From Haloarcula salinisoli (GTDB taxonomy: Archaea > Halobacteriota > Halobacteria > Halobacteriales > Haloarculaceae), in the NCBI RefSeq assembly GCF_019599405.1, contig NZ_RKLQ01000001.1:868001-932000 (forward strand): a stretch of DNA of 64,000 bases, given 5' to 3'. The notes beneath the pieces are model-generated. The model did not search any database. It saw nothing but the letters and a program-made list of their open reading frames with translations, and was not told where the DNA came from. This document shows positions 23,483-28,901 of this stretch, one piece after another (within the stretch, counting starts at the first letter, position 1; each line of letters begins with the position of its first letter). A program made the position numbers and the translations under genes.

Positions 23483-23612
23483 GACGCGGCGGTGGTGAAC
23501 AAATCGACGGGTTTGTGAGTCAGGCCGCGCGAACGTAACGATGTGCGGCGGTGGTGAGCAAATCCAACGGATTTGCGAACGACGCCGCACGAGCGAACGA
23601 AGTGAGCGACGT
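23483..23612 (+). repeat. two tandem partial copies of the tRNA-Gly 5' end with hairpins
   Basis: The first 11 bases of tRNA-Gly, GCGGCGGTGGT, occur also at 23486-23496 and 23545-23555, followed by related sequence (GARCAAATC...). The second copy contains a perfect hairpin, GCAAATCC-aac-GGATTTGC, and ends in GCCGCAC, which is complementary to GTGCGGC at the tRNA start. The spacing is 59 and 68 bp. These look like stepwise duplications between promoter and tRNA. Confidence 0.7.
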
Positions 23613-23683
23613 GCGGCGGTGGTCTAGTGGTAGGACCTGAGCCTTCCAAGCTCATGGCCCGGGTTCAAATCCCGGCCGCCGCA
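23613..23683 (+). tRNA. tRNA-Gly (anticodon UCC)
   Basis: 71 nt, cloverleaf complete. The acceptor stem is GCGGCGG/CCGCCGC with discriminator A; D arm GTC-TAGTGGTAG-GAC; anticodon stem TGAGC/GCTCA with loop CTTCCAA (anticodon TCC at 23645-23647); T arm CCGGG-TTCAAAT-CCCGG. It reads GGA and probably other GGN codons by wobble. CCA is not encoded. No intron. It is flanked on both sides by copies of its own end sequences. Confidence 0.97.
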
Positions 23684-23899
23684 TCCTGCGACGAACGAAC
23701 GTGAGGAGCGGATGCTGAATTGAGGGATTTGAAGTAGAGAAGACGAGCGAAGCGAGTCTCGCCATCGGGTTCAAATCCATTGAGACGCAGTCGGCGTCTC
23801 ACGATGTTCGTAAACGCGGAGCGGTTGCTCACTTCCGGAAGACGCAGTCTGTCTTCTGTCGCTCACCTCGCTCTGCTCGGTGAACTCCCGACCGCCGCA
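23684..23899 (+). repeat. composite tRNA-tail element ending in a second tRNA-Gly 3' end
   Basis: The last 14 bases of the tRNA (23670-23683) recur at 23886-23899 with one mismatch. In between are a T-arm-like segment GGGTTCAAATCC (23767-23778), matching the TTCAAAT T-loop of this tRNA, hairpins around AGACGAGCG...GTCT and GAGACGC...GCGTCT, and a ~93-bp core (23742-23834) closely similar to the tail of tRNA-Arg (26648-26739). It looks like att-type duplication, but no integrase lies between the repeats. Confidence 0.75.
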
Positions 23900-26519: not shown

Positions 26520-26593
26520 GGGCGTGTGGCCTAGTGGACGAGGGTGAGGGGTTCCTAACCCCTAGAGCGCGGGTTCGAATCCCGCCACGCCCG
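26520..26593 (+). tRNA. tRNA-Arg (anticodon CCU)
   Basis: 74 nt. Acceptor GGGCGTG/CACGCCC with discriminator G; D arm with TAGTGGACGA loop; anticodon stem AGGGG/CCCCT with loop TTCCTAA (anticodon CCT at 26554-26556); T arm GCGGG-TTCGAAT-CCCGC. It reads AGG. No intron and no encoded CCA. It starts 30 bp after the tatA stop on the same strand. Confidence 0.97.
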
Positions 26594-26751
26594 TTCTGCT
26601 CCGAACGAACGTGAGGAGCGAACGGGCTCGGGATTCGAATCACGCGAGACGAGCGCAGCGAGTCTCGCCTCGGGTTCGAATCCCGAGAGACGCCGCCGGC
26701 GTCTCTCGATGTTCGCAAACGCTTCGCGTTTGCTCACTCCCGCCACGCCCG
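26594..26751 (+). repeat. composite tRNA-tail element ending in a second tRNA-Arg 3' end
   Basis: The last 14 bases of the tRNA, TCCCGCCACGCCCG (26580-26593), recur perfectly at 26738-26751. In between lie two T-arm-like segments, CGGGATTCGAATCACG and CTCGGGTTCGAATCCCGAG, both with the TTCGAAT T-loop of tRNA-Arg, and palindromes AGACGAGCGCAGCGAGTCT, GAGACGCCGCCGGCGTCTC and AAACGCTTCGCGTTT. The 26648-26739 core closely matches the tRNA-Gly tail. No ORF is supportable inside. Confidence 0.8.
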
Positions 26752-26778: not shown

Positions 26779-27246
26779 CTATTCCACGACCACGGCGCCG
26801 CGCATATTGAACCCGAGATGCGGGGCGCAGTAGTAGAGATACGTTCCGGTCGACTCGAAGGTGTGTTCGAACTCGTTGTCTGCCTCGGCGGTCGTCTCGC
26901 TCTCGAACTCGCCCTGTTCGTGGACGACGTTGTGGCCGCTCCCGTTGCCCGTCCAGACCCACGTGACGGTCGTTCCCGAGTCGATGCGGACGGCCGGCGG
27001 CGCGAATGCGTAGGCGCCGCCGTTGCCCTCGGCGCCGACGTCGACGGTGACGCTGTCGCTGCCGGTCTCGTCCTGTATCGTGCCGTCGTAGTTGTCGGTC
27101 TCGTTGAGGTACTGGTCGACGGTCTGCTGTGGGCTGCCGGTCTCGGAGGGGACGCCGCCGTCCGAGCTACTACACCCGGCCAGGAGCCCCGCTGCCGTGG
27201 CCGCCGTGATTCCGAGGAACGCCCGCCGGTCCGGATTTGCTGTCAT
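26779..27246 (-). CDS. halocyanin-like blue copper lipoprotein
   Basis: 155 residues. Tat signal DRRAFLGITAATAAGLLAGC with lipobox Cys25 anchors it outside the membrane. The cupredoxin domain has the type 1 copper ligands His in GSGHNVVHEQG, then Cys, His and Met in YYCAPHLGFNMRG. It carries electrons between membrane complexes. A ~40-residue acidic linker precedes the domain. The ATG at 27246 is selected because the Tat signal starts there. It diverges from the photolyase gene. Confidence 0.92.
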   Translation of the reverse strand: MTANPDRRAFLGITAATAAGLLAGCSSSDGGVPSETGSPQQTVDQYLNETDNYDGTIQDETGSDSVTVDVGAEGNGGAYAFAPPAVRIDSGTTVTWVWTGNGSGHNVVHEQGEFESETTAEADNEFEHTFESTGTYLYYCAPHLGFNMRGAVVVE

Positions 27247-27365
27247 ACGCGCACTTGACGGGTGCAGTGTGAAAACGCCACTCATTCCCGACGAGCACCT
27301 CCGGATACCTACGTGGTTCGGAGGGGGGTTCATGACGGTCCCGCGGGTAGTGAAACGTATGCGAG

Positions 27366-28901
27366 GTGCCAGCCGTGACGGTGTGGCTCCGGGGTGACCA
27401 TCTGGTCCGCCATCGGGGTCCAGTGGCCCGACGGCCCGACGAGCGTGTGCTGCTCGTCGAGGCCGAATCGTTCGCCCGCAAACTGCCCTACCATCCGCAC
27501 AAGCTGACGCTGGTCTTTGGCGCGATGCGGCGGCTCCGGGACGAGCTGCGCGAGGCGGGCCGAACCGTCCACTACCGTCAAGTCGGGACGTTCGAAGACG
27601 GGCTGACCGCCCACTTCGAGACCCATCCCGACGACCGGCTGGTGACGACGGCGCCACAGGCCGACGGCGCGCGCGAACGCATCGAGTCTCTCGTCTCGGA
27701 TGCCGGCGGCACCGTCGAGTTCGTCCCCGACGAACGGTTCTGCTGCTCGCCCGAGCAGTTCGACGAGTGGGCGGGCGACGGCCGGTATCGCCACGAGAAT
27801 TTCTATCGGTTCATGCGCCGTGAGACCGGCTATCTCATGGACGGTGGCGACCCCGTCGGCGGCGAGTGGAACTACGACGACCAGAACCGCGAGACGCCGC
27901 CAGCGGACTGGTCACCGGCCGACCCGCCCAGCTTCGACTACGACGATATCGTCCACGAGACAGCGGCGTGGGTCGAGCAGACCTTCGCTGGCGGCTACGA
28001 GGACCCGCCCTACGGCGGCGACTGGGCCGACCCCGAACCCTTCCGCTGGCCGGTGACGCGCCGTCAGGCGGTGCGAGCCCTGGACCACTTCGTCACCCAC
28101 CGGCTCGCCGACTTCGGCCCGTACCAGGACGCGATGCGGGGCGGGGAGTGGGCGATGAGCCACAGTCTGCTGTCGACGTCGCTGAATCTCGGCTTGCTCC
28201 TGCCCGACGAGGTCATCGAGCGTGCTATCGAGGCCTACGAGGACGGTTCGGTCCCGCTCAACAGCGTCGAGGGGTTCGTCAGGCAGGTGCTTGGCTGGCG
28301 GGAGTTCATGCGCCACGTCTACCGCCGGGAGATGCCCGACCTGGCGACGGCCAATCAGCTGGGGGCCGACGAGCCGTTGCCGGAGCTGTACTGGACCGGC
28401 GACACCGACATGGCCTGTCTCTCGGACGTGGTCGACGGTGTCAGAGAGCGGGGATACTCACACCACATCGAGCGGCTGATGATTCTGGCGAACTTCGGGC
28501 TCGTCTACGGTGTCGAGCCCGCACAGCTGAACCGGTGGTTCCACGCGGGCTACGTCGACGCCTTCCACTGGGTGACGACGCCCAACGTCGTCGAGATGGG
28601 GCTGTACGGCGCCGGCGTCTTCGCGACGAAACCGTACGCCGCCTCGGCCAACTACGTCGACAAGATGAGCGACTACTGTTCGGGCTGTCCCTACTACAAG
28701 ACCAAGACCACCGGCGAGGGGGCCTGTCCGTTCAATGCGCTGTACTGGGACTTTCTGGACCGCAACGAAGACCAACTCAGGTCGAACCACCGTATGGGGC
28801 TGATGTACAGCCACGTGGACAACAAGGACGAGGAGGAGTGGAACGACATTCGCGAGCGGGCCGACGAGATACGGACGCTGGCCGAGCGAGGGGACCTGTG
28901 A
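27366..28901 (+). CDS. iron-sulfur bacterial-type cryptochrome/photolyase (FeS-BCP, PhrB-like)
   Basis: 511 residues from a GTG. Four cluster-binding Cys at residues 351, 438, 441 and 454 (DMACLSD, YCSGCPYYK, GEGACPFN) match the spacing of PhrB-type 4Fe-4S (6-4) photolyases almost residue for residue. The N-terminus VTVWLRGDHLVRHRGPVA and LPYHPHKLTLVFGAMRRLRD belong to this DPRP group, not the classical CPD photolyase family. It should bind FAD and repair (6-4) photoproducts under light, which suits an organism of sunlit brine. Confidence 0.92.
   Translation: MPAVTVWLRGDHLVRHRGPVARRPDERVLLVEAESFARKLPYHPHKLTLVFGAMRRLRDELREAGRTVHYRQVGTFEDGLTAHFETHPDDRLVTTAPQADGARERIESLVSDAGGTVEFVPDERFCCSPEQFDEWAGDGRYRHENFYRFMRRETGYLMDGGDPVGGEWNYDDQNRETPPADWSPADPPSFDYDDIVHETAAWVEQTFAGGYEDPPYGGDWADPEPFRWPVTRRQAVRALDHFVTHRLADFGPYQDAMRGGEWAMSHSLLSTSLNLGLLLPDEVIERAIEAYEDGSVPLNSVEGFVRQVLGWREFMRHVYRREMPDLATANQLGADEPLPELYWTGDTDMACLSDVVDGVRERGYSHHIERLMILANFGLVYGVEPAQLNRWFHAGYVDAFHWVTTPNVVEMGLYGAGVFATKPYAASANYVDKMSDYCSGCPYYKTKTTGEGACPFNALYWDFLDRNEDQLRSNHRMGLMYSHVDNKDEEEWNDIRERADEIRTLAERGDL

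Follow-up and report, generated by a model that had tools for sequence, protein, structure and literature searches.

Downstream of the tRNA-Arg(CCT) gene we identified a palindromic unit belonging to a widespread type of modular array, in which each array carries copies of the 3' tail of the tRNA gene that it follows. These arrays are best read as DNA-level, integron-like cassette arrays that recombine at T-loop and acceptor-end sites. The exchange of modules, the edges of the tail copies and their specificity for the host tRNA are shown insofar as sequence comparison alone can show them. Our searches of the open-access literature turned up work on tRNA fragments and on integration at tRNA genes, and no description of arrays of tRNA-tail palindrome cassettes with gain, loss, reordering and interspecies recombination; an earlier description cannot be excluded, since subscription journals lie mostly outside the literature covered.

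The tRNA-Arg(CCT) gene that hosts the array lies at 26520..26593 on the plus strand of the window, the 64-kb stretch of DNA that was analysed, and was identified by ARAGORN and by Rfam RF00005 (66.6 bits). Its tail proper, tRNA positions 53-73 from the T-loop to the discriminator base (26573..26593, plus strand), is the segment copied by T-type modules, with a sharp edge at position 53 in position-by-position identity. D-type modules copy only the 14-nt tail, positions 60-73 (26580..26593, plus strand). The sequence of this shorter tail, TCCCGCCACGCCCG, occurs exactly twice in the window, first in the gene itself and again as an exact 14-nt second copy of positions 60-73 at 26738..26751 (plus strand), at a spacing of 158, and the initial annotation was correct in reporting an exact 14-bp repeat at both ends of a 158-bp element. 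Between the two copies lie 144 bp of hairpins, and we found neither an integrase nor any other cargo in this interval.

The unit begins with a hairpin, H1 (26589..26627, plus strand, identified from the fold), the stem of which takes in the final bases of the tRNA tail and which belongs to a class, TTCTGC...GAGGAGCGAA, common to the tails of other tRNAs. It is followed by an inverted T-arm copy of tRNA-Arg, or antitail, GGGATTCGAATC (26630..26641, minus strand), which is complementary to the T-arm and is the breakpoint at which the 5' halves of modules swap, and by the core palindrome H2 (26642..26670, plus strand), of class CACGCGAGACGAGCGNAGCGAGTCTCGC, also found in the tRNA-Gly unit. Then comes a direct T-arm copy, CGGGTTCGAATCCCG (26671..26685, plus strand), the start of a T-type tail copy that is broken off after TCCCG, and a D-type insert of two nested hairpins (GAGAGACGCC..GGCGTCTCTC and GCAAACG..CGTTTGC; 26685..26737, plus strand), with TCCCG on either side. 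Both of the T-arm-like pieces noted previously in this element exist, with the qualification that the first is inverted and only the second direct. The two pieces pair mutually through 13-nt arms of 100% complementarity, 12 bp of which are paired in the predicted fold.

Judged from its sequence, the Arg unit is a composite, in which a D-type hairpin pair splits a T-type copy just behind TCCCG. This composite is also found, with a like nested arrangement at the direct T-arm copy, at the Arg locus of a congener (G004), and also at an intron-bearing tRNA (C1:1109345) and at tRNA-Glu(CTC) of the same genome as the window; an Arg locus from a Halorussus (L140) likewise has a T-type copy broken by a D-type-like hairpin pair. 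The D-type insert of the Arg unit is also present in tRNA-Trp-like and tRNA-Glu tails. A weak tRNA-Sec covariance match lies over the palindromes (26636-26715, minus strand; 27.7 bits, below the cut-off of 47) and is most likely a chance match arising from the T-arm copies. The gene just past the array (26779-27657, minus strand) resembles a halocyanin-type copper protein, on a reading of its sequence only. The array stands at a rearrangement boundary, since other Haloarcula species have a different gene after tRNA-Arg.

A homologous array follows the tRNA-Gly(TCC) gene (23613..23683, plus strand), which lies 2.9 kb upstream of tRNA-Arg(CCT). Its tail unit (23684..23899, plus strand) has the plan and core of the Arg unit with the T-loop letters of tRNA-Gly, as had been proposed from the sequence: the T-arm pieces are GATTTGAA and GGTTCAAATCC in the matching layout, and the unit terminates in TCCCGACCGCCGCA, with one mismatch to the tRNA-Gly tail. 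The Arg and Gly units align with a score of 163, whereas 500 dinucleotide shuffles score 27.8 +/- 6.3 and reach 50 at most. The core claimed as common to both elements is thereby upheld, although at 78% identity it is not nearly the same in the two. Separately, the 5' end and leader of tRNA-Gly, GTGCGGCGGTGGT, recur 68 bp upstream, the two copies flanking a palindrome (23543-23555 and 23611-23623). This is no general effect, with 5'-end copies found upstream of 2/42 tRNA genes in this genome and 0/41 in G004.

A full unit, placed directly after the tRNA, consists of tail, H1, inverted tail, H2 and tail. T-type Arg copies match their own tRNA at 97-100% over positions 53-73, 91% at position 52 and 19% at position 51, and D-type copies at 97-100% over positions 60-73 and 13% at position 59. 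The tail copies have fixed edges: T-type copies begin at tRNA position 53, D-type copies at 60, and both end at 73, and the edges at 53 and 60 repeat for different tRNAs and module classes. Splitting 147 T-type modules into halves yielded recurring 5'-half classes (TTCTGC.., TGCAGCGA.. and TTTTCCGGC..) and six 3'-half classes that recur across families with paired motifs (CAGGGA/CCGTG, CCTG/TCCG, CACGCGAG/CACCGGG, GAGAGAA/CGCGTG, TAGAC/GGGCGTG and CACGGAACG/TTCAGGCG), and the two sets of classes combine freely.

We investigated the distribution of these units within the genome and across the Halobacteria. A search for the Arg element, suggested in the initial annotation, gave 22 matches in the genome (4.03 Mb), mostly next to tRNA genes and with the tail of the tRNA concerned, which bears out the inference of a shared core combined with host-specific tRNA sequence. 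Among the 41 tRNA genes with enough flank, 16 are followed within 600 bp by a copy of their own 22-nt tail (at least 20/22 identity), whereas foreign tRNA tails reach this threshold in 0.06% of comparisons, and no own-tail copy was found upstream of any of the 41. When 14-nt copies are included, at least one own-tail copy is present at 21/41 tRNAs in this genome and at 17/40 in G004. Across Halobacteria species with 600 bp of sequence downstream of the tRNA-Arg(CCT) locus, a tail copy is present in 70/103, against 0/108 loci in the upstream control.

A diagnostic pattern (an inverted T-loop, 22-52 nt and a direct T-loop) was searched for in 296 Halobacteriota genomes. By tabulated count it is present in 59 of the 60 Halobacteria, mostly with several matches each, and in 9 of the 236 other Halobacteriota, with two matches at most in each, which is background level; the reversed-pattern control over the same 296 genomes was almost empty. 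By this pattern, the arrays are class-wide and, within the Halobacteriota, confined to the Halobacteria. Near-identical patterns on viral contigs were background, mainly the anticodon loops of tRNA-Ser(GA), and the one haloarchaeal match in the viral scan (L270) was a tRNA-Glu with its own array. A search for a vehicle of the units found no relatives of the Arg unit in phage or plasmid records.

The arrays turn over: at orthologous tRNAs of two congeners most of them differ, including presence versus absence. The copies carry the tail variant of their own host species in 71/90 cases, against 27.7 expected (maximum 45) when species are shuffled, a signal that is due partly to shared ancestry. 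For Arg modules, 46 pairs have a like 5' half (at least 0.9 identity), of which 12 share and 19 have unrelated 3' halves, and 117 pairs have a like 3' half, the 5' halves being unrelated in 33 of them; the Arg units of G004 and of this genome themselves have a common 3' half and different H1 hairpins. These pairings show, as a deduction from aligned modules, that half-modules have been exchanged at the inverted T-loop. Related arrays share modules in changed, and also reversed, order. Of 29 triples, 8 have alternate modules more than 85% alike, an X-Y-X block duplication (one species entered this count twice), whereas adjacent identical duplicates are found in 1/98. One within-genome block duplication is the D-T-D array (L095) of the tRNA at G000:C2:656927-656999 (minus strand), with D modules 97% alike. 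Decay is seen in the final copy of an array, which matches at 7.7 of 11 acceptor positions compared to 10.8 for the inner copies, which are perfect. Unshared modules lie on both sides, 87 tRNA-proximal and 93 distal, and insertion only at the tRNA-proximal end, which the decay of the last copy had suggested, finds no support in the order of modules.

Our preferred reading, at slightly less than even confidence, is that the units are miniature cassettes recombined at tRNA sites by tRNA-targeting tyrosine recombinases, with the enzyme step inferred. Recombination would take place at the acceptor end and at the T-loop in either orientation. Because their edges match two tRNA sub-sites of these enzymes, the units would then be miniature integrative cassettes without genes, mobilised in trans. 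The T-loop and the acceptor end are both among such sub-sites, and the attachment site of SNJ2 is about 13 bp at the tRNA acceptor end (PMC8371274); the D-type copies have 14 nt at this end, although no SNJ2-type enzyme has been tied to the arrays. Deletion or insertion of cassettes could turn any tail copy into the real 3' end of the gene, and each copy would stay correct since a working tRNA is selected. That the whole constitutes a gene-less site-specific system on a tRNA platform, in which two-half cassettes recombine at T-loops and the 3' end is repeatedly replaced from reserve copies, is a speculation that we consider rather unlikely as it stands.

Six tyrosine recombinases in the genome are above the family cut-off, and one of them belongs to the 11-kb element in tRNA-Ala described below. 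Four tyrosine recombinase matches and several tRNA genes are located on one 220-kb contig (G000:C3), which suggests that it is an integration hot region. We found no recombinase linked to the units, and neither an excised circle nor an empty-site pair at base resolution. Against the reading by tyrosine recombinases, insertion solely next to the tRNA is unsupported and no relative of the Arg unit turned up among phage or plasmid records. Furthermore, an exact-site enzyme alone would not spread one core among tRNAs with different tails; such spread would also take either gene conversion or recombination at the inverted T-loop.

Cassette movement by tyrosine recombinases is favoured over general recombination and conversion, which remains possible if less probable: the arrays would be tRNA-tail satellite repeats, shuffled by homologous recombination, gene conversion and template switching at palindromes without a dedicated recombinase. 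Polyploid haloarchaea readily equalise sequences, and the 21-bp tail repeats, together with the universal T-loop blocks (GGTTCRAATCC and its complement), provide homology everywhere. Fold-back replication would yield the order tail-H1-antitail-H2-tail, the X-Y-X blocks fit unequal exchange, and the decay of last copies beside perfect inner ones is compatible with such shuffling. However, unequal exchange should also leave adjacent identical duplicates, which are almost absent, and the recurrence of edges 53 and 60 across tRNAs and module classes is not accounted for; site constraints are suggested by the way six 3'-half classes recur in different families with their paired motifs.

Site-specific recombination of cassettes is likewise preferred to a reading of the arrays as deletion remnants, which we regard as improbable, and in which every tail copy would mark the distal attachment site of a once larger element, reduced by deletion to 60-110 bp. 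The tail copies are as long as attachment repeats should be, and tRNA-Ala provides one complete case, an element of 11 kb (L263, G000:C3:151000-163600) integrated with a 32-bp exact repeat, past the far end of which lies a D-type module. Its genes encode an integrase (PF00589), a 1299-aa Eco57I-type restriction-methylase and a Schlafen AlbA_2 protein, and it is possibly a small defence island. The position of the D-type module beyond the far end implies that integration put the element between the tRNA gene and its array. The repeat is nevertheless 32 bp rather than 21 or 14, and the end of the element is without an inverted tail. Across tRNAs and families, deletion would not be expected to produce the same ordered arrangement of an inverted tail and two hairpins, nor to leave six core classes in common.

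A still less probable explanation is that the arrays act as RNA, as structured 3' trailers or small RNAs that are produced together with the tRNA and govern its maturation, or that pair with tRNA 3' ends. The Arg stretch folds strongly as RNA compared to dinucleotide shuffles (z = -6.3), but folded as DNA it likewise lies well under the shuffled sequences (z = -4.6). Pairing with the own tail is better than with foreign tails for the 3' half (p = 2e-10) and, only slightly, for H1 (p = 0.006); such a preference is to be expected if the arms descend from the tail, and it does not prove a function. Helices selected as RNA should contain more G-U than A-C mismatches. In the module helices we counted 67 G-T against 91 A-C, compared to 18 against 1 for tRNA genes by the same method, and the absence of a G-U excess gives no sign that a transcript from the tRNA strand is under selection. 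An RNA function of the sense strand was rejected by this test, which also leaves unsupported the processing by RNase Z or tRNA endonuclease raised in the initial annotation. In addition, presence at a given tRNA is not kept between congeners, and no Rfam family fits.

Chance likeness of GC-rich palindromes, which would unlink the Arg and Gly elements and had been named beforehand as the outcome that would refute their relationship, has practically no support left: although haloarchaeal intergenic DNA abounds in GAGCGAAGCGAG-type palindromes, an Arg/Gly score about 21 standard deviations above the shuffles excludes it, as do own-tail specificity and the class-wide restriction with its clean reversed-pattern control.

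Mobile DNA lands more often in tRNA genes than anywhere else, and why these genes tolerate it is an old question. In the two genomes checked, around half of the tRNA genes (21/41 and 17/40) possess modular arrays with spare 3' ends, and such arrays occur across a class to which the genetically tractable genus Haloferax belongs. If confirmed, the arrays would offer a natural system for studies of T-loop recombination and a source of tRNA-tail variation, and would call for caution in annotating haloarchaeal tRNA fragments and integration sites.

Several known systems resemble these arrays in part. At tyrT of Escherichia coli, 178-bp repeats contain 19 bp of the tRNA 3' end (the rtT RNA region), at one locus and with one repeat sequence, and to our knowledge without an inverted tail. 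As at tyrT, the haloarchaeal units follow a tRNA gene in tandem and each include a copy of its 3' end; unlike tyrT, the arrays have two edge types and swappable half-modules and are class-wide. The rtT family of Rfam gave no match even at E <= 1, and only tRNA was above the gathering score. Integron attC arrays similarly comprise imperfect palindromic sites, with modules gained, lost and reordered and with DNA folding rather than RNA function, but the haloarchaeal arrays have no cassette genes and their conserved part is the host tRNA tail. Membership of the integrons by an IntI-type integrase was rejected, as the integron integrase (TIGR02249) had no match in this genome. On the further integron trait of recombination at one class of site by an integrase that acts on a folded strand, the exchange of half-modules and the changes of module order show only consequences in the sequence. 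REP and REPIN elements are also short, GC-rich, intergenic palindromes in many copies, but the haloarchaeal palindromes stand behind tRNA genes and contain the tRNA's own sequence in both orientations.

The attachment repeats of archaeal tyrosine recombinases of SNJ2 and SSV types are likewise direct, tRNA-specific 3'-end copies that begin either within the T-loop or close to the acceptor end and leave the tRNA gene intact (PMC8371274). A direct repeat of the tRNA 3' end that restores the gene, as in attL/attR pairs, is present here (exact 14 nt, with edges at 53/60 and 73), while the integrase or cargo of a mobile element of this type is not, with only hairpins in the 144 bp. Unlike attachment repeats, the haloarchaeal repeats enclose gene-free palindromes of 60-130 bp, form multi-copy arrays behind about half of the tRNA genes, and hold an inverted tail and recombined modules common to different tRNAs. 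Since each of these relatives shares some features of the arrays and fails others, we place them outside the named families, as a variant of tRNA-targeted recombination.
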